Positions 2,680 through 29,712 of a DNA stretch of 34,309 bases are shown piece by piece. The DNA comes from a virus. Under the pieces are notes generated by a model. It made no database searches, was not told the origin of the DNA, and saw nothing but the letters and a program-made list of their open reading frames with translations. Both the position numbers and the translations under genes were made by a program. Location: positions 1 through 34,309 of the IMG/VR virus record IMGVR_UViG_3300011113_000662. The stretch is one strand, 5' to 3'. How positions within the stretch are numbered: position 1 is the first letter of the stretch; each line of letters begins with the position of its first letter.

Positions 2680-2928
2680 ATGGATTGGTTTGCGCTCATG
2701 TTTCTGCGGTCGATTGTGGTTCACACGTGCAGCATTGTCGACGGTGGTCTGGCTGGGACGGTGGATCGGCAGCTGGTCGGTTCGGAGGAAGTGCAGGATT
2801 TGCTGCTCGATATTCGGGCCAGGTTGCAGGATTTGGATGAGACGCTGTTGAACTGGGAGGAGCAGAGTTCCGGTTGCATTCCGGTTCGCAGCGCGGACGG
2901 TGTTGAGGGTGGACAAGAAGCCGTTTGA
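2680..2928 (+). CDS. Small protein of unknown function
   Basis: The 82-residue product has a hydrophobic N-terminus (MDWFALMFLRSIVVHTC) that could be a short membrane helix or buried strand, then an amphipathic stretch with a coiled-coil look (EEVQDLLLDIRARLQDLDETLLNWEEQ, split by no proline). No clear Shine-Dalgarno precedes the ATG. Instead there is a small hairpin, GCCC-GTAA-GGGC, directly before it, resembling the sequence before the gene at 21879. Its 3' end overlaps the next, very small gene by 20 bases. The family is not recognised. Confidence 0.55.
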   Translation: MDWFALMFLRSIVVHTCSIVDGGLAGTVDRQLVGSEEVQDLLLDIRARLQDLDETLLNWEEQSSGCIPVRSADGVEGGQEAV

Positions 2929-3037
2929 GTGTCGCTACTGCCGGACTGTGGTGTGGGTTCCTCGCAAGGAACCAGCCCCGGTCGAGTGCGCTAACTGTGG
3001 CGGTCCTGTGAAACCCCACGTTCGGAGGAAGTCATGA
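2909..3037 (+). CDS. 42-residue zinc-ribbon protein
   Basis: A GTG-started frame encodes a protein with two CxxC pairs, ECRYCRT near residue 8 and ECANCGG near residue 27, about 16 residues apart, followed by a basic tail (VKPHVRRKS). This is the usual four-Cys zinc ribbon spacing. It overlaps the previous gene by 20 bases in another frame, and its TGA overlaps the ATG of the next gene (ATGA), which supports translational coupling. The Shine-Dalgarno is weak. A role in nucleic-acid or protein binding is inferred. Confidence 0.65.
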   Translation: MDKKPFECRYCRTVVWVPRKEPAPVECANCGGPVKPHVRRKS

Positions 3038-3369
3038 AGTTTGTTGTCGCGTCGCTGTTTGTTGCGGTCGGTTCGTTTGTTGCGTTGAGTGAGGCGGATG
3101 ACCAGCTGAAGTCGTTCGTTCCGTCAGCGGCGGAGGCGACGGCCCGTTTTTCCTTGAGGGCCGTCGCCGAGGGCGCGAGGATTGATGCGACGCTTGCCGG
3201 GGAGGGCGACACATCGTCGTTTCTCGACGATGTGGTGGCCCGAACGCCGAACAACGAGGCGTTGACAGTTACCGCTGACGGTTCTGTCGAGTGGTCTGAT
3301 GGGGTTCATTGTTTCCGTCTCTATGGCGGACCGGTGGAGGCGGACGATCGGATCGTTCCGTGTGAGTGA
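3034..3369 (+). CDS. Secreted small protein with signal peptide
   Basis: The 111-residue product opens with MKFVVASLFVAVGSFVALSEA, a Lys-then-hydrophobic stretch ending in a plausible signal-peptidase site near residue 21. The rest is soluble, with two late cysteines (VHCFRLY and the terminal PCE) that could form a disulfide. GGAGG lies six bases before the ATG. An exported product between the terminase genes is unexpected; it could act at the envelope during infection or in exclusion of other phages, but nothing in the sequence identifies the function. The stop codon overlaps the large terminase ATG (TGATG). Confidence 0.75.
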   Translation: MKFVVASLFVAVGSFVALSEADDQLKSFVPSAAEATARFSLRAVAEGARIDATLAGEGDTSSFLDDVVARTPNNEALTVTADGSVEWSDGVHCFRLYGGPVEADDRIVPCE

Positions 3370-5180
3370 TGCAGGCGAATACGTCTTCGCGTCGCCGTCG
3401 CCTGCTTGAAGGTTTTGCTGCTGAGGCGGAGTTGCGCCGCTGCAAAGAAGATAAGCGCTACTTCATTGAGAACTATTGGCACATCCCGGTGGAGGGTGCG
3501 CCTGGTGGTCGGTCGTTGTTCAAGTTTTGGGATTTCCAAGGTGAGGCGTTTGATTCGCTGCAATCGAATAAGCGCGTGGTGATCGCGAAATGTCGTCAGC
3601 TCGGCATGACGACGTTGACGATGGCTGATACTGCGCATTCGCTGCTTTTCGCGGAGGACCGGTTCGAGGCGTTGGTGTTGTCGTGGCGTGAAGACATCGC
3701 CCAATCGACACTCGGGATGATCGAGTTCGGGTATCAGTATCTGCCGCAGTGGATGAGAGCCCGGTTACCGAAACGTGATGACCGAACCAAGGAAAGGATT
3801 ACGTTCCGCCACCGCGATGGTCGCACCACGTCGGCGCAGGCTTTCGCTGGTACCGCCAGGTCGGGTGCGTCGAAGACTGCGACTCGCGTGATTTTGGATG
3901 AGTACGCGCTGATGGATAACCCGGGTGCGGTGTATCGAGCTGTTGAACCGACGACGTTGGCAGCGATGAGAAACCCCGGGAAGGAGGCGGTGTTCATTGT
4001 GTTGTCTACGGCCCGCGGTAATCGCAACCAGTTCGCGCGACTGTTTTGGGATGCGTGGGATAAGAAGACGTCTTGGAAAGGGTTGTTCTATTCGGTGGAG
4101 TGCAACCGGTTTCTCGCTAACGAGGGACAGGATTTGTGGGAGGCGTGGGAGTTGAAACGCCGCGAATATGCGGGACGGGATCACGAGTTTTTTGCCGACT
4201 ATCCACGTAGCGCCGAGGAGGCGTTTCGTGAGTCGGGCCGCGGCCGGTTCGCCAACGTCCCCGAGTTGGCGGACTGCCCCCCGTTTGAGACAGCTGGGTT
4301 TCTGGTTCGGGAGAACGGGAACGTACGGCTCGACTTGGCGAAAAGCGATCTTGATAGCCAAGGTGCCCACATTTGGTTGGCTTGCGAACCGCATGAGTTG
4401 CCGAAGTCGGTGAACTACGTGATTGCTGCCGACCCGTCTGGTGGTGTCGGGAAAGACTTCCACGCCGCCCAGGTGATGTGCCTCGATGAAGATGGCGCCC
4501 GGATCGTCGCATTCATTCACCGAAACGACATCGACCCAACCGAGTTTGCAGACCTCGTCGACGCTGCCGGCCGCTATTTCAAAGGCGGCAATGGTCGCGC
4601 TGCTTTGGTGGTTGTGGAACGCAACGAGAACAACGAAGGTGAAGTGTTGTCCCGGCTACGTCAACGTCGGTATCCGAACCTTTTCCGCTACGCGTCGAGG
4701 GACCGTCCGACGGAACGTCTCGCCCCGGTTTACGGCTGGCCAATCAACAAAGCGACGAAACCTGAAGCCATCAACGCCTTGGCGCGTCTGCTCGGCTCAG
4801 AGCCCGATGGAGCTGGCGGGTTTCGCCCGGCGCCGAAACTGCAAGGCATCTACCCAGAACTTCGCGACGAGCTCGTCAACTACGTCGTGATTGAGAAAGA
4901 GAACGGGCGTATCGAGATGCGTGCCGATGGCAACGGGCATGACGACCTGGTGTCTTCGACTGCTATCGGGTGCGCTGTGCTTGAGCGGCAGAAGCCTCGC
5001 AAAGTGTCAGGTTCTGCCCCCATCACCGAGACCGTCCCTAATGACGGCCCGGTTGTCGCGTTCAACCCCACCGAGTATCTGGATAAAGAGATGGACAGAG
5101 CACGCCGGGCGGAACGTCAACAGAAGGTCGCTTGGAGACGCCTCAATCGGCGGTACCGAGACAGGAGTCCGAGGAACTAA
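3369..5180 (+). CDS. terL: Terminase large subunit, ATPase and nuclease
   Basis: The 603-residue packaging motor has a Walker A-like segment KCRQLGMTT (about 74-82), a Walker B strand RVILDEYA (173-180) and a motif III-like VLSTARGN (211-218). The RNase H-fold nuclease follows: VIAADPSGG (Asp355), VVVERNENNEG (Glu417/Glu419) and GHDDLVSS (Asp525/526). Both halves have their key residues, so it should translocate and cut DNA. The ATG overlapping the previous stop is chosen; a GTG one codon upstream is equally possible. The portal gene begins three bases after its stop, the classic order. Confidence 0.95.
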   Translation: MQANTSSRRRRLLEGFAAEAELRRCKEDKRYFIENYWHIPVEGAPGGRSLFKFWDFQGEAFDSLQSNKRVVIAKCRQLGMTTLTMADTAHSLLFAEDRFEALVLSWREDIAQSTLGMIEFGYQYLPQWMRARLPKRDDRTKERITFRHRDGRTTSAQAFAGTARSGASKTATRVILDEYALMDNPGAVYRAVEPTTLAAMRNPGKEAVFIVLSTARGNRNQFARLFWDAWDKKTSWKGLFYSVECNRFLANEGQDLWEAWELKRREYAGRDHEFFADYPRSAEEAFRESGRGRFANVPELADCPPFETAGFLVRENGNVRLDLAKSDLDSQGAHIWLACEPHELPKSVNYVIAADPSGGVGKDFHAAQVMCLDEDGARIVAFIHRNDIDPTEFADLVDAAGRYFKGGNGRAALVVVERNENNEGEVLSRLRQRRYPNLFRYASRDRPTERLAPVYGWPINKATKPEAINALARLLGSEPDGAGGFRPAPKLQGIYPELRDELVNYVVIEKENGRIEMRADGNGHDDLVSSTAIGCAVLERQKPRKVSGSAPITETVPNDGPVVAFNPTEYLDKEMDRARRAERQQKVAWRRLNRRYRDRSPRN

Positions 5181-24174: not shown

Positions 24175-25299
24175 CTAAATCGCCTTCTTTACGCGGTCCA
24201 GATACTCCGGGTCCGAGTGCAGATACAGCGTCTGAGTAATCGAAGGATTGGCGTGGCCCATCATCCGGGAGATGTCTTCAAGAGCAATCTTCCCCTCACG
24301 GCGCCACTTGGAGCCCCGATAGTGGCGAAGCGAGTGGAGCGCCATGTTGAGTGGATAGTCGGAGGCACTACGCAACTTACGGAACGTGGTCGACCAGTTG
24401 CCGTTCGACATTGGCGTCCCGTTCTTCGTATCGACGAGGAAGCAATCGTCAGGCTGACTCTCCACCCATTTACGCAGAGCCGGGATTGAGTCGGCAGGAA
24501 TCACTACACGACGAACACCGGCTCCAGTTTTCGTCATCTTCTCCTCGTCAGAGTCCCGCGACGTCCACACAGACACGGTGCGTTGCTCCCAATCGAAGTT
24601 CGGCTTGCGGAGCGCTCGAATCTCAGACCAACGCAGCGCACACAACTGGGCCATCTCAATCACGAACCAGGCTCGGCCACCATCGAATTGCTCACGAGCC
24701 TTCGCGGCCGCCAGGAGGCTCTCCACCTGCGACTCGACAGGTATCGATTTCAGCGGGACGGGTGCGAGCTGCACATTCATGTCGGTCGTGCGCGACTTCG
24801 GAACCGGTACGTCGCGCGTCGGCTCTTGTCCGGCAGTCCACACTCCGTGCTTCACCCCGTGGGCGCCGACCTTCGACAGAATCTTGCGGGCCTTCGCAAC
24901 GGTGTGCTTCGAGTAGCCGGCATCGAAGATGGTGCGCAGCACCGCGGCACAGTCGGCGGTCGACACGAGGCGGGCCTTCTTCGCTCCGAGGCTCGGCATG
25001 ATGTGGATGCGGAGAATAGAACGCAGCGTGTCGTAAGCCTTGTCCGAATAGTTGGGAAGGTTTTCTCGGCGCATCGCCGCATCGGCTACGCCACCAAACG
25101 TGCCCTCCGGGGAGCCGAGCCCGCCCGATGCGAGCCGGGTCTCAACCTGACGGGCGAACGTGCAGGCCTCCTCCCAGGTCGACTTCGAACGCTCGACCGT
25201 CTTACCGTTCTCACGCCACCGGATACGGACCCACGATCCGCGCTCCGCTACTGACACCGCACCGAACGAGGTCTTGCGGCTTCCTTTTTTCTTGCTCAT
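24175..25299 (-). CDS. int: Tyrosine-family integrase
   Basis: The 374-residue product has an N-terminal arm-binding region (GSWVRIRWRENGKTVERSK), a core-binding domain (about 70-160), and the catalytic domain with all expected residues: ALRWSEIRALR (Arg223), Lys near 257, LHSLRHYRGS (His322, Arg325), GHANP (His349) and the nucleophile Tyr359 in ITQTLYLH. It would catalyse phage integration and excision. The start with AAAGGAAAA upstream is chosen; a 29-codon upstream extension overlaps the excisionase-like gene. It is transcribed leftward away from the repeat-rich candidate attachment region. Confidence 0.95.
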   Translation of the reverse strand: MSKKKGSRKTSFGAVSVAERGSWVRIRWRENGKTVERSKSTWEEACTFARQVETRLASGGLGSPEGTFGGVADAAMRRENLPNYSDKAYDTLRSILRIHIMPSLGAKKARLVSTADCAAVLRTIFDAGYSKHTVAKARKILSKVGAHGVKHGVWTAGQEPTRDVPVPKSRTTDMNVQLAPVPLKSIPVESQVESLLAAAKAREQFDGGRAWFVIEMAQLCALRWSEIRALRKPNFDWEQRTVSVWTSRDSDEEKMTKTGAGVRRVVIPADSIPALRKWVESQPDDCFLVDTKNGTPMSNGNWSTTFRKLRSASDYPLNMALHSLRHYRGSKWRREGKIALEDISRMMGHANPSITQTLYLHSDPEYLDRVKKAI

Positions 25300-25315
25300 T
25301 GCTTTTCCTTTCTGG

Positions 25316-25573
25316 TTAGGCCGCAGCCATTCGGGTGCGGCGTTGGGGACCCCGGGCCTTGCCTTGCAGCAAGTCCGGGGAGACATACATGAAGTCGGAG
25401 TTCAAGGCCTTGGATTTCGAAATCCAACGGTCGAGCTCGGCGCTGTTGATGCGAGGGCTCTTCGGCCCGATGTAGACGACGGTCGGAAACGACGGGTCAG
25501 ACTGCGCCCGCCGCCACACCGTGGTCCTGTGCCAGCCAAGTCGGCGGGCTGTTTCTTTGATCGTGATAAGCAT
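25316..25573 (-). CDS. Excisionase-like helix-turn-helix protein
   Basis: The 85-residue product starts with MLITIKETARRLGWHRTTVWRRAQ, a MerR/AlpA-type winged helix-turn-helix, followed by a wing (FPTVVYIGPKSPRINSAELDRWISK). AlpA/Xis proteins of this kind bend DNA at attachment sites and choose excision over integration, or activate integrase transcription. It lies 16 bases upstream of the integrase gene in the same direction. No clear Shine-Dalgarno is seen. The frame stays open upstream to about 26068 but that part crosses repeats and the tRNA, so the short start is preferred. Confidence 0.72.
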   Translation of the reverse strand: MLITIKETARRLGWHRTTVWRRAQSDPSFPTVVYIGPKSPRINSAELDRWISKSKALNSDFMYVSPDLLQGKARGPQRRTRMAAA

Positions 25574-25656
25574 CCAATACGGATGGTGACGGCGCCAGAA
25601 ACGGGCGCACTCCCCGCCAAAGTGGGGAGAGAAGTTGGGAGTGGATTCACAAATAC

Positions 25657-25672
25657 CCTGTAAACACAGGGC
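25657..25672. repeat. TGTAAACA pseudo-palindrome, copy 1
   Basis: CCCTGTAAACACAGGG is a perfect inverted repeat (CCCTGT/ACAGGG) around AAAC. It shares 13 of 16 positions with the copy at 25745 (CCTTGTAAACATTGGG). The pair flanks the candidate crossover site, so it could bind a dimeric protein such as Xis or a repressor. Confidence 0.65.
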
Positions 25673-25690
25673 ATTTATGGGGGTGACTTT

Positions 25691-25705
25691 TTGCCTTCCA
25701 AGCAA
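25691..25705. mobile_element. attP: Candidate attP core matching the tRNA-Gly anticodon loop
   Basis: TTGC-CTTCCAA-GCAA has four-base symmetric arms around seven bases, the usual crossover length for tyrosine integrases. TGCCTTCCAAGCA (25692-25704) is identical to the anticodon stem-loop of the tRNA-Gly gene at 25937-25949. Williams' class of tRNA sites with crossover in the anticodon loop has exactly this symmetry. Sequence beyond the core does not continue the tRNA. Confidence 0.55.
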
Positions 25706-25744
25706 GTTATGTACCTGCCGCCTTTTGGCGTGAAGTAACGAAAA

Positions 25745-25760
25745 CCTTGTAAACATTGGG
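25745..25760. repeat. TGTAAACA pseudo-palindrome, copy 2
   Basis: CCTTGTAAACATTGGG matches copy 1 at 13 of 16 positions, with the central TGTAAACA intact and a less perfect outer inversion. It lies between the candidate core and the right-hand GTTGGGAG cluster. Confidence 0.6.
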
Positions 25761-25909
25761 CTTCTCGGATTTGGCTGCGTAGCGCCAGTCTCCAAAAAGG
25801 TGGGAGAAAACGTGGGAGAGGCACCCTTTTGGGGGTGATGTTGGGAGAAATGTTGGGAGCGTGAGAGAGAGACGTTGGGAGAAAATCGGTAGGTTATGAG
25901 GCACCCAAC

Positions 25910-25983
25910 GCGGCCAAGGTGTTGTGGTGGCACTTCTGCCTTCCAAGCAGACGGCGCGGGTTCGATTCCCGCTGGCCGCTCCA
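25910..25983 (+). tRNA. tRNA-Gly(UCC)
   Basis: A complete cloverleaf of 74 bases with encoded CCA: acceptor GCGGCCA/TGGCCGC pairs perfectly; D arm GTG...CAC; anticodon stem TCTGC/GCAGA with loop CTTCCAA, anticodon TCC (25942-25944); T arm GCGGG-TTCGATT-CCCGC. It decodes GGA and wobble glycine codons. No separate promoter was identified. The minus-strand gene beyond it ends exactly at its 3' border. Either it supports late translation or it replaces a host tRNA broken by integration; the nearby duplicated anticodon loop favours the second. Confidence 0.96.
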
Positions 25984-26316
25984 TCATCGTTTGGGCGGCC
26001 ATTTGTCGCCTTCGGTCCACCCCACCGGGGCGACAAACATCCACTCGCTGCATCGGGGACATTCCCATACCTTGGGGCGATACCTCGATCCAAAGTCCTT
26101 CCAGTTTTCTGGAATAAAGGAGAGCGGAGCCTTGACGGGATATTCCTTCTCACACCGTTCGCAAAACCAGATTTTGGGGTTGTAGGAGGTCTTCTCGAAC
26201 ACCGGCTCCTGGACCTCCTGCGGCGTGGCCTCCGGCTTGGGTGCCATCCGCTGGCGCTCTAATAAGTAGCCACCGGCAGCCAGGACTGCGCCGGCGAGAA
26301 GCAGCAGCCAGCTCAT
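25984..26316 (-). CDS. Membrane-anchored zinc-ribbon protein
   Basis: The 110-residue product starts with one transmembrane helix (MSWLLLLAGAVLAAGGYLLE), then a Pro/Glu linker and a four-Cys domain: FCERCEKEY near residue 51 and ECPRCSEW near residue 86. The rest should be cytoplasmic or exported depending on topology. It lies in the accessory segment beside the methyltransferase, and divergent from it. Membrane-bound zinc proteins near int are common among lysogenic conversion genes, but function is not identified. The TGA abuts the tRNA 3' end. Confidence 0.72.
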   Translation of the reverse strand: MSWLLLLAGAVLAAGGYLLERQRMAPKPEATPQEVQEPVFEKTSYNPKIWFCERCEKEYPVKAPLSFIPENWKDFGSRYRPKVWECPRCSEWMFVAPVGWTEGDKWPPKR

Positions 26317-26369
26317 AACGCGACAGTACCAGTGCTGCCGAGTTACATGTGCTGGCTACGGTGGAGCCG

Positions 26370-27440
26370 ATGCCAAAGAAGAAGCCAAAGTCGAAGAAGC
26401 CGGTCGCCAAGAAGCCCGCCCGCCCGCAACCGAGAACCGCTCCTCGCGACTTGACTGCAGCCAAGACTGCGAAGAAAGACGAGTTCTACACCCAGCTTCC
26501 AGACATCGAGCGGGAACTACGCCACTACAAGCAGCACTTCAAAGACAAAGTCGTCTACCTCAACTGCGACGACCCGAGGGTCAGCAACTTCTTCCACTAC
26601 TTCTCTTACAACTTCGAAGTACTCGGACTGAAGAAGGTGATCGCCACCTGCTACAAGAGCCAAGAAAGAGACCTTTTTAGCCAGAACGACAGTGAGCAAG
26701 CAATCTGGTTGGAATACACCGGGGACAAAGACGGCAACCGTGTCCCGGATCCGAGCGAGATCGGAGTCAAACCACTCGAAGGAGACGGGGACTTCCGCAG
26801 TGATGAGAGCATCGAGTTACTCAAGCAAGCGGACATCGTCGTCACGAACCCACCATTCTCGCTGTTCCGCGAGTACGTGGCTCAGCTAATGACATTCGAC
26901 AAGAAGTTCGTCATTTTAGGAAACATGAATGCCGTGACGTACAAGGAAGTATTTCCCCTGTTTCGGTCAAACCGTATCTGGTACGGACCGAGTATCAGCA
27001 GCGGTGACCGTGAATTCGGTGTGCCAGCAAGTTATCCGTTAGCAGCAGCCGGGTGTCGGGTTGATGAACACGGCAACAAGTTTGTACGAGTGAAGGGTGT
27101 TCGTTGGTTTACAAACCTCGACGTCTCCAAGCGACACGAGGACCTAGTTCTCTACAAGACCTACAACCCAGAGGAGTACCCTACGTATGACAACTACGAC
27201 GCAATCGAAGTGAGCAAGACAAAAGAGATTCCGATGGACTACCCCGGCGTCATGGGAGTACCAATAACGTTTCTCGACAAGTACAACCCGGATCAATTCG
27301 AGATACTTGGGATGGCCGCCTCAAGTTATGACGAGTACATGATGGGTATTCCGTTCAAAGGACAGAAAGATGGTCGTCCGATAGTGGCCGGTGAGAATGT
27401 GTACGCCCGAATCTTTATTCGTCGAAAGAGTAAACCGTGA
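26370..27440 (+). CDS. EcoRI-family adenine methyltransferase
   Basis: The 356-residue product has a Lys/Pro-rich N-terminal tail, then the features of the EcoRI-type adenine-N6 methyltransferase family: DEFYTQLPDIERELRHY (about 37-53), VVYLNCDDPRVSNFF (61-75), the catalytic NPPF (160-163) and ILGNMNAVTYKEVFP. It would methylate adenine in a specific, unknown DNA sequence using S-adenosylmethionine. GGTGGAG lies just before the ATG; a GTG seven codons upstream is possible. It overlaps the nuclease gene by 4 bases (GTGA), implying joint expression as a modification-restriction pair. Confidence 0.88.
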   Translation: MPKKKPKSKKPVAKKPARPQPRTAPRDLTAAKTAKKDEFYTQLPDIERELRHYKQHFKDKVVYLNCDDPRVSNFFHYFSYNFEVLGLKKVIATCYKSQERDLFSQNDSEQAIWLEYTGDKDGNRVPDPSEIGVKPLEGDGDFRSDESIELLKQADIVVTNPPFSLFREYVAQLMTFDKKFVILGNMNAVTYKEVFPLFRSNRIWYGPSISSGDREFGVPASYPLAAAGCRVDEHGNKFVRVKGVRWFTNLDVSKRHEDLVLYKTYNPEEYPTYDNYDAIEVSKTKEIPMDYPGVMGVPITFLDKYNPDQFEILGMAASSYDEYMMGIPFKGQKDGRPIVAGENVYARIFIRRKSKP

Positions 27441-28519
27441 AAATTGAACTAACCAGCGTCTCTATCCGCGAGCTCGCAACTGGGTACTTAGACAACCAAG
27501 AAGATGGAGTCGTCGGATACGGCGGCAAACTCGACATTCGACCCCCCTACCAGCGTGAGTTCGTCTACAAGGACAAACAACGCGACGCCGTCGTCGACAC
27601 CGTCTTCAAGACCTACCCGCTCAACGTCTTCTACTGGGCCGTCCGCCTCGACGGCGGGTTTGAAATCATCGACGGCCAGCAGCGCACAATCTCCGTCTGC
27701 CAGTACGTGAACAACGACTTCTCCTTCGAAGGCCGCTACTTCAACAACCTGCAAGACGACGAGCAGGAGAAGTTTCTCAACTACGAGATAACCGTGTACC
27801 GCTGCTCCGGAACCGACAGCGAGAAGCTCGCATGGTTCCGAACCATCAACATCGCCGGCGAGAAGCTCACCGAGCAGGAGCTGCGCAACGCTGTCTACTC
27901 CGGCTCATGGGTTTCGGCCGCCAAGCGAATCTTCAGTAAGAGCAACTGCGCCGCCTACCTCCTCGGCAGCGACTATGTAGACGGCTCACCGATCCGACAG
28001 CACTACCTCGAAGAAGTCATCACCTGGCTGTCCGACGGCGACATCGAGGGCTACATGGCTTCACACCAACACGACACGGATGCGAGCGCCGAATGGGACT
28101 ACTTCCAAAAAGTGATCGCGTGGGTGAAAGCGACGTTCACCGAGTACCGGTCCGAAATGAAGGGCCTGCCCTGGGGAACGCTCTACAACAAACACAAAGA
28201 CAAGGCCCTCGACCCGAAGAAGGTTGAGAGAGACGTCGCGAAACTCATGGAAGACGAGGACGTGACCAGCAAGAAAGGCATCTACGCCTACATCCTCACC
28301 GGCGAGGAGCGCAACCTAAACATCCGTACGTTCGACAAGAAGCAGAAGCGGGAAGCGTACGAACGGCAGAAAGGCATCTGCGTCAAATGCAAGAAGAAGT
28401 TCACCATCGAGGAGATGGAAGCTGACCACATCACCCCGTGGAGCAAGGGTGGCCCGACCGAAGCCGACAACTGCCAACTGCTCTGCATCGAAGACAATCG
28501 GCGCAAAGGCGGCAAGTAG
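27437..28519 (+). CDS. DUF262-HNH endonuclease
   Basis: The 360-residue product has an N-terminal DUF262 (ParB/sulfiredoxin-like) domain with PPYQREFVY (36-44) and IIDGQQRT (77-84), the nucleotide-binding or hydrolysing motif. The C-terminal HNH has CVKC (315-318), EADHITPWSKGG (Asp330, His331), Asn345 and a second Cys pair region NCQLLC. DUF262 plus HNH occurs in type IV (GmrSD-like) and SspE-like nucleases; here it starts within the stop of an adenine methyltransferase. It probably cuts DNA lacking, or carrying, the partner's methyl mark. The start is GTG. Confidence 0.88.
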   Translation: MKIELTSVSIRELATGYLDNQEDGVVGYGGKLDIRPPYQREFVYKDKQRDAVVDTVFKTYPLNVFYWAVRLDGGFEIIDGQQRTISVCQYVNNDFSFEGRYFNNLQDDEQEKFLNYEITVYRCSGTDSEKLAWFRTINIAGEKLTEQELRNAVYSGSWVSAAKRIFSKSNCAAYLLGSDYVDGSPIRQHYLEEVITWLSDGDIEGYMASHQHDTDASAEWDYFQKVIAWVKATFTEYRSEMKGLPWGTLYNKHKDKALDPKKVERDVAKLMEDEDVTSKKGIYAYILTGEERNLNIRTFDKKQKREAYERQKGICVKCKKKFTIEEMEADHITPWSKGGPTEADNCQLLCIEDNRRKGGK

Positions 28520-28529
28520 TCGGTCGCGT

Positions 28530-28733
28530 TCACTGCTCGGTGCCGTTGCGCATGTCTTGCAAAATGCGGCGCTCTTCTTCAAACATAAACCCAGCAGAGA
28601 GCTGGAATCCGAGCACGACCCCCAAGGTGAAGTCGAGAAGGCTGATCAAGTCAAACGCGTCGGACACAACGTCTACCGCAAACGCACCAAAGTAGCCAAG
28701 CACGAACCATTTCAGGATCTTGCGCCCCATCAT
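28530..28733 (-). CDS. Small membrane protein
   Basis: The 67-residue product has a basic start (MMGRKILK) and two hydrophobic stretches (WFVLGYFGAFAVDVV; LISLLDFTLGVVLGFQL) separated by a short loop, then a charged tail. It could be a two-helix membrane protein. It overlaps the upstream gene by ATGA and forms the last gene of the leftward early unit, tail to tail with the nuclease gene (10 bases apart). A role in superinfection exclusion would suit its location but is not shown by the sequence. Confidence 0.7.
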   Translation of the reverse strand: MMGRKILKWFVLGYFGAFAVDVVSDAFDLISLLDFTLGVVLGFQLSAGFMFEEERRILQDMRNGTEQ

Positions 28734-29191
28734 CGAGGCATCGACTGCATCAAGATAAGTCGATCCATGCAGCGCACGAGCGCCTCCGCGAGACTCCCAT
28801 TCCCCGTCGTATTGGTCAACACATTCTCCATGTCATCGCGAAACGCCATCGCCGAAGCCACTTCCTTCTCGCGATTCACCACGCTCACTAGGCGAACTCG
28901 CCGCCGACCTGGATGCTCTGAGGGGGCGACGTCATCATCGTTCTCGTTCTCGACTGGGGCGGCCCAACCACACGTTTCGATACCGACAATAGGCACCGGG
29001 CCAATCTGTTCGTATCCGGCAGGCAGGACCTGGAGTCCGAGATAGACATCTCCGGTCTGAATGTGGAACGTCAGCTCCCCATCATCCGACACGCTAAACA
29101 GGCGCGCCTGGCGGATGTCGAACGGGTCGTCGTCAGTTAGAGCAGCTGATTGGTAGTAAGCGAGCAGTGCGGTTGCTTCCAAAGGGGTCAT
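28730..29191 (-). CDS. Early protein of unknown function
   Basis: The 153-residue product has a helical N-terminus (TPLEATALLAYYQSAAL), a beta-like centre (DDGELTFHIQTGDVYLGLQVL), an acidic/charged linker (NENDDDVAPSEHPGRRR) and a C-terminal helix. It has no recognised motif. It shares a 4-base overlap with the next small membrane gene, so the two are probably coexpressed. Its ATG lacks a clear Shine-Dalgarno and is divergent from the plus-strand gene at 29296, with about 100 bases between them for promoters. Confidence 0.7.
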   Translation of the reverse strand: MTPLEATALLAYYQSAALTDDDPFDIRQARLFSVSDDGELTFHIQTGDVYLGLQVLPAGYEQIGPVPIVGIETCGWAAPVENENDDDVAPSEHPGRRRVRLVSVVNREKEVASAMAFRDDMENVLTNTTGNGSLAEALVRCMDRLILMQSMPR

Positions 29192-29295
29192 CGGTTACCA
29201 AGGTGACTGCAGGCGGCGATGTAGACACACCCCGCAAGAGGGGCTCTCCCGATGCAGGGAATGCACCACGAGGTTGCCCCGGGCACCATGAAGCC

Positions 29296-29712
29296 ATGCT
29301 CAACCCAAAGACTCCTCGACAGGCCCATATCCAAAAAGTTCTGGTCAAAGCGATGATTCGCGATGGCTTACGACCACCGACTACGGTCGTAGCGGCCGTC
29401 TACTCCCGAGTCGTCCGAGAAGCGCTTGAGAAGGGCCAACTCGATTCCGAAGTACTTCGCGACCCTCGGCTCATCCCGCTCGCCATCAACTACACGGCCA
29501 GCCACGACTTTGACAAGGCGTTCATCAAGGCGGTTGAAGCTCTCCTAATACTTCAACGAGTTGAACGAGAGAGGCGAGCTAAAGCGGCCGCGGCGAGAGA
29601 GACACAATCACCCGCTCTGCCCGAACCAGCACCGGCTCCGCGATCGAGACGTACTCCCCCGTGTCGTCCGGCCACAACCCGGCGTCGACCAAACCGTCGA
29701 CAATCGCCTTGA
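29296..29712 (+). CDS. Plus-strand protein of unknown function, tail overlaps rusA
   Basis: Within a leftward operon this rightward frame encodes 138 residues. Residues 1-95 look like a real folded helical protein (AHIQKVLVKAMIRDGLRPPT, REALEKGQLDSEVLRDPRLI, HDFDKAFIKAVEALLILQ). From about residue 96 it runs antiparallel to the resolvase gene for 134 bases and becomes low-complexity Pro/Arg, so the tail may be unimportant or the true end may lie in another frame. The Shine-Dalgarno is weak. Its solitary opposing direction would suit a regulator, but no DNA-binding motif is clear. Confidence 0.5.
   Translation: MLNPKTPRQAHIQKVLVKAMIRDGLRPPTTVVAAVYSRVVREALEKGQLDSEVLRDPRLIPLAINYTASHDFDKAFIKAVEALLILQRVERERRAKAAAARETQSPALPEPAPAPRSRRTPPCRPATTRRRPNRRQSP

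Follow-up and report, generated by a model that had tools for sequence, protein, structure and literature searches.

The definition of tRNA-dependent lysogeny stems from work on cultured phages of Mycobacterium and Gordonia (Guerrero-Bustamante & Hatfull 2024, PMC10865867), the published examples being mycobacteriophages Fionnbharth (K4), LeBron/Gabriela (L) and Gaia (X), and the Gordonia phages BrutonGaster, OneUp and Mollymur (PMC10865867). For Fionnbharth and others, experimental work has established cores of 8-17 bp, no rebuilding of the tRNA gene, a cognate phage-encoded tRNA and the presence of arm sites, while lysogeny was shown to be lost without the phage tRNA (PMC10865867). None of the tRNA-dependent entries in the table of that study concerns tRNA-Gly, and the authors raised the question of how common this form of lysogeny is (PMC10865867).

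In the 34.3-kb virus record analyzed here (the window, i.e., the whole of that stretch of DNA), a region composed of int, xis, attP and tRNA-Gly (Table 1) very probably represents the integration cassette of a temperate phage that employs tRNA-dependent lysogeny, as judged from sequence comparisons.

Table 1. Features of the predicted integration cassette (positions in the window; offsets relative to the attP core)
Feature	Position	Strand	Supporting data and remarks
Tyrosine integrase, 374 aa	24175..25299	-	Pfam PF00589 5e-19; PHROG 1 integrase 1.5e-40
Excisionase-like HTH protein, 85 aa	25316..25573	-	PHROG 66 excisionase/regulator 7e-8; Pfam HTH_17 2e-4
Left (int-side) arm-type pair, GTGGGGAG AGAA GTTGGGAG	25622..25641	+	Direct repeats; ~-68/-55 from core
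attP core	25691..25705	+	CTTCCAA 7-bp overlap between inverted TTGC/GCAA; without tRNA 3' half
First right-side arm-type pair	25799..25818	+	+110/+122; direct repeats; identical offsets in G167
Second right-side arm-type pair	25840..25859	+	+151/+163; direct repeats; identical offsets in G167
Extra single right-side arm-like site	25873..25881	+	+185; absent from G167
Complete tRNA-Gly(UCC), CCA encoded	25910..25983	+	ARAGORN; Rfam RF00005 60.5 bits; same place in G167

Organisation of the predicted cassette and its presence in related phages

The cassette is bordered on one side by genes encoding a terminase, a P22/SU10-type portal and a capsid protein, and on the other by those for an EcoRI-type methylase and a Sak4-like ATPase. 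The possibility that the window represents the edge of a prophage was rejected, as phage genes border the cassette at either end and the window is collinear with a complete circular relative. This relative, IMGVR_UViG_3300035670_000690 (G167), encodes an integrase and a portal with 60% and 91% identity, respectively, to those of the window, and was taken to be a complete circular genome because it possesses a 127-bp terminal repeat.

An earlier note, made from the sequence of the window, had placed an integrase and an excisionase-like gene next to the attachment site, and both identifications are borne out by the profile matches and by the complete tyrosine recombinase set of catalytic residues (R223, H322, R325, H349 and Y359). 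A search of phages and plasmids with the integrase returned only distant relatives exhibiting 20-30% identity, the phage records thus matched numbering 39. The attP lies beside this phage-encoded integrase with arm sites on both flanks, and the arm-like repeats of the earlier note were found to retain their offsets from the core in G167 (-67/-55, +110/+122 and +151/+163), where the motif reads TGGGGAA as compared to TTGGGAG in the window. Such a co-varied motif at constant spacing is what would be expected for sites that are read by a diverging arm-binding domain of the integrase. As a separate observation, TGTAAACA flanks the attP core on both sides (25659-25666 and 25748-25755), with the int-side copy also present in the bacterial contig L097 described below, and these repeats possibly represent putative accessory-factor sites, bound by Xis or by a host protein.

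The complete tRNA-Gly(UCC) gene which the earlier note had reported near this site is the single tRNA detected by ARAGORN in the window (tRNA-Gly(TCC)), and its score exceeds the RF00005 cut-off of 29 bits. It is separated from the attP core by a gap of 204 bp and points in the direction of the host tRNA gene that it would follow once integrated. In G167 a tRNA-Gly(UCC) gene occurs in the same place and orientation, 182 bp downstream of the core. The tRNAs of the window and G167 are 82% identical to each other, while the comparison with the host copies which the note had suggested yielded 65-76% identity to host tRNA-Gly(UCC) genes, and the phage tRNAs are therefore not fresh copies of the target. 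A blastn search of the cassette against phages, with settings for distant matches, returned only the tRNA-Gly part of the query among the matches listed. Adjoining the tRNA, an EcoRI-type adenine methylase gene is followed by a gene for a GmrSD_N (DUF262) and HNH protein (26349-28519), a possible defence or self-protection pair in the tRNA block.

A further relative, IMGVR_UViG_3300007216_000280 (G524; 39,954 bp), aligns collinearly with the window along most of its genome, at 69-85% nucleotide identity. It lacks the block corresponding to about 24.1-29.6 kb of the window, and no such integrase, tRNA or core was found in it; the methylase and GmrSD_N/HNH genes are also missing. Integrase, attP and tRNA are thus co-present or co-absent in the three genomes compared.

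The attP core and its relationship to tRNA-Gly(UCC)

Phages that target tRNA genes usually carry the 3' half of the tRNA in their attP. For a conventional tRNA-restoring attP, approximately 30-45 bp or more of this 3' half would be expected to the right of the core, while the sequences found there, GCAAGTTATG... in the window and GCAAGTTACG... in G167, do not correspond to a tRNA 3' half, consistent with what the earlier note had read from the window. The core itself, TTGCCTTCCAAGCAA at 25691-25705, is the symmetric TTGC-CTTCCAA-GCAA site of that note and lies between xis/int and the complete tRNA-Gly(UCC) gene; a stretch of 19 bases, TTGCCTTCCAAGCAAGTTA, is identical in the window and G167 amid otherwise poorly conserved DNA, and the core is thus also present in a relative with an integrase of the same kind.

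Within the 34.3-kb window, TGCCTTCCAAGCA occurs in two exact copies, at 25692-25704 in the core and at 25937-25949 in the tRNA, while all other matches carry three mismatches. When the intergenic stretch was dinucleotide-shuffled 400 times, no shuffle matched the tRNA over 13 bases (the maximum, 12, was reached in 3/400), and a chance origin of the match between core and tRNA is excluded on that basis. The 13-base identity previously noted therefore holds for the phage's own tRNA, while in the case of host tRNAs it is reduced to 11 bp, GCCTTCCAAGC, i.e., attP is closer to its own tRNA than to the host attB. The 16-base core was encountered 84 times inside ARAGORN-predicted tRNAs in IMG/VR, those among the matches listed being tRNA-Gly(UCC), from which it follows that the core originates from an anticodon arm; outside tRNAs, it was accompanied by a related integrase nearby only in the window and in G167 (which appears twice). 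The 18-base pattern TTTTGCCTTCCAAGCAAG was without a match in IMG/VR. In both phages a paired change separates the arm of the phage tRNA (TCTGC/GCAGA, 25934-25951) from that of the attP core (TTGC/GCAA, 25690-25706), a difference which could serve to limit self-recombination.

A different arrangement was observed in IMGVR_UViG_3300031999_000050 (about 2779-4101), where a tRNA-Gly-like 3' half, TTGCCTTCCAAGCTGG...TTCAATTCCC..., directly precedes an integrase-like ORF and no complete tRNA was found near this ORF. This locus probably employs the same anticodon crossover in the conventional manner, with the tRNA being restored.

A probable phage/host junction in an actinobacterial contig

The sole match to the integrase in the genome collection was located in contig JAQCBM010000175.1 (L097) of Actinomycetota bacterium MAG casp15-mb.155, which, given the same naming scheme, probably derives from the Caspian Sea MAG study (PMC9726936). 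Its int side is 97% identical to positions 24503-25711 of the window, and its order is phage xis, the left half of attP, CTTCCAA and the 3' half of a host-type tRNA-Gly(UCC). Past the core, the contig does not enter the phage right arm but proceeds, in the direction of the window, to CTTCCAAGCTGGCTATGCGGGTTCGATTCCCGTCACCCGCTCCA and 22 further bases. The CTTCCAAGCTGGCTATGCGGGTTCGATTCCCGTCACCCGCTCCA 3' half, which has a GCTGG stem, is 100% identical over 46 nt to chromosomal tRNA-Gly(UCC) sequences from four other genomes of the order, three of which yielded a complete gene; the tRNA-Gly(UCC) genes inspected across the order have the arms CCAGC-CTTCCAA-GCTGG or CTAGC-CTTCCAA-GCTAG. The 22-base tail is without a match in the window, G167 or G524 at up to six mismatches, and is not common to the flanks of the related hosts inspected.

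The split host tRNA-Gly(TCC) that the earlier note had predicted was thus encountered, with the break at CTTCCAA, at an int-side junction, and the relative that provides it switches to a host-type tRNA-Gly at the core, and is thus not integrated at another site. As the stem of this junction is GCTGG, while that of the phage tRNA is GCAGA, the attB is not the phage copy at 25910. Judged from this one contig and its int-side junction, attB is the anticodon loop of tRNA-Gly(UCC) in the host, sharing the 11-bp core with attP. An exact-match attB was dropped as a candidate, the 15-bp attP core being absent from 166 genomes of the order. Of the two junctions anticipated by the note only the int-side one was recovered; neither G001 nor IMG/VR yielded the attL (5' half) junction. 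Searches of IMG/VR for attL-like CCAGCCTTCCAAGCAA and attR-like TTGCCTTCCAAGCTGG junctions revealed no phage of the window's kind, and alignment of the integrase across the 166 genomes and a 395-genome sample of the class produced no second integrated copy.

Over contig positions 1-4980 L097 is a mosaic, in which the integrase match ends at residue 266 with an in-frame fusion to about 100 unrelated residues; the contig lacks window positions 24503-29672, with the ends and their order kept, and carries an extra 568 bp. Either a decayed prophage, which would remain dependent on its tRNA, or a chimeric or misassembled contig could account for this structure. The break point at the core is a feature separate from this mosaicism and is located at the opposite end of the contig, which stops short of the expected position of the phage tRNA. 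The 3' half is 100% identical to that of another group of the order as compared to 92% at best for the MAG's own genus, and the binning of L097 is uncertain; the class Acidimicrobiia, taken from the source study, is a guess for the host.

Proposed mode of integration and alternative explanations

According to the proposed mechanism, the tyrosine integrase would bind the paired arm sites on both flanks of attP and catalyse recombination between the 7-bp overlap CTTCCAA and the anticodon-loop portion of the host's tRNA-Gly(UCC) gene, the exact positions of strand exchange being predicted. The host gene would thereby be cut in two, with the 5' half adjoining the phage right arm (a predicted junction) and the 3' half adjoining xis/int. 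Since the attP of both free phages is without the tRNA 3' half, neither junction could rebuild the tRNA, and because integration would not restore the host gene, the phage tRNA would have to stand in for it. By the standard rules of decoding, GGA is no longer read once the UCC species is lost, and one tRNA-Gly(TCC) gene per genome was present in the five related draft genomes in which one was found. The phage tRNA-Gly(UCC), if expressed and required as presumed, would replace the lost GGA decoder and keep the lysogen alive. The reading of the earlier note, i.e., insertion paired with a rescue tRNA, is supported as to mechanism, while the novelty that it claimed is not, the strategy having been published (PMC10865867).

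It is conceivable, if unlikely, that the host tRNA-Gly promoter drives the rescue tRNA, in which case its expression would depend on integration. After integration, the phage tRNA would lie downstream of the disrupted 5' half of the host gene, at a distance of about 210 bp and in the same direction. As the tRNA is located beyond attP and is co-oriented with the host gene, read-through from the host promoter is possible; orientation and spacing are conserved in the window and G167. A consensus scan of positions 25280-26100 returned neither a promoter nor a terminator. Against such promoter capture, TAGGTT (window) and TATAGT (G167) are located shortly upstream of the tRNAs and could be candidate -10 elements of a private tRNA promoter.

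The absence of a tRNA 3' half from the attP of the window and of the complete G167 genome argues against an ordinary tRNA-restoring integration, in which the attP of this family would hold that half, L097 would represent such an attP and the complete tRNA would be incidental. Restoring and non-restoring attP sites are known to differ among close relatives, as is the case for Cain and Ximenita (PMC10865867), and with only 22 bp beyond the tRNA half L097 by itself does not distinguish attP from attR, and could in principle be a phage variant with the 3' half in its attP; yet the core is precisely the point at which it diverges from the window, and the final 22 bp of the contig are absent from all three phage genomes, rendering this explanation very unlikely. 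Slightly less probable again is a role of the phage tRNA in lytic translation or against tRNA-cutting defences, with its position beside attP being due only to history. Phage tRNAs often serve in such roles, and GGA and GGG together make up 30% of the Gly codons in the main phage genes, but GGA alone accounts for just 15.5%, the tRNA is the only one in the window and shares its isotype with the host gene under attack, it accompanies the integrase and is missing along with it from G524, and a split host gene would need a replacement in any case.

The least probable explanation is that the tRNA at 25910 is itself the recombination site, either attB-like or a remnant of tandem integration, with the 25691 site as its attP. 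The greater identity of attP to the phage tRNA than to host tRNAs would fit this proposal, as would published work suggesting a second integration into a phage tRNA for integrating plasmids, but the sole observed junction carries the host-type stem, and phage genes border the tRNA on both sides in the complete circular relative.

Implications

If correct, tRNA-dependent lysogeny would extend to Gly-UCC, to another integrase lineage and to aquatic Actinomycetota that are uncultured, a natural junction being provided by metagenomic DNA. The state would be readable directly from DNA by a short anticodon-loop core, paired arm sites and a cognate tRNA by attP. It would furthermore provide one clear reason for a small temperate phage to keep a single tRNA gene, while the lysogen would depend on prophage DNA for an essential tRNA, favouring retention even if the prophage decayed.

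Comparison with known systems

The strategy itself was already described in 2024, while the isotype and integrase lineage encountered here are not among the published examples. Similar to the cases of PMC10865867, the window phage has a tyrosine integrase, a predicted attB in a host tRNA gene, a short non-rebuilding core, actinobacterial hosts, a complete cognate tRNA and arm-type sites around attP, a pattern in line with the published core lengths, phage tRNAs and flanking arm sites. It differs in isotype, the published cases being Lys-TTT, Ile2-CAT and Leu-CAA, and none of the tRNA-dependent phages of PMC10865867 is among the phage records matched by the window integrase. A new isotype and a different integrase lineage are therefore indicated, as the published table contains no tRNA-dependent case for tRNA-Gly and the named phages fall outside those records. 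The position of the tRNA is also distinct, since in the window it directly adjoins attP and has the orientation of the host gene, while that of Fionnbharth overlaps gene 37 on the opposite strand and has its own promoter (PMC10865867).

The actinophages Whitney, Kuwabara and Jace employ a tyrosine integrase and a related target, tRNA-Gly(TCC/CCC), and integrate conventionally (PMC10865867 Table 2); they rebuild the gene and have 47-51 bp in common with attB, as opposed to 11 bp for the window phage. The Lactobacillus johnsonii prophage Lj965 (cited in PMC10865867), likened here by its description, resembles the window phage in that the tRNA is not rebuilt and a cognate tRNA is encoded, while its host belongs to the Firmicutes.
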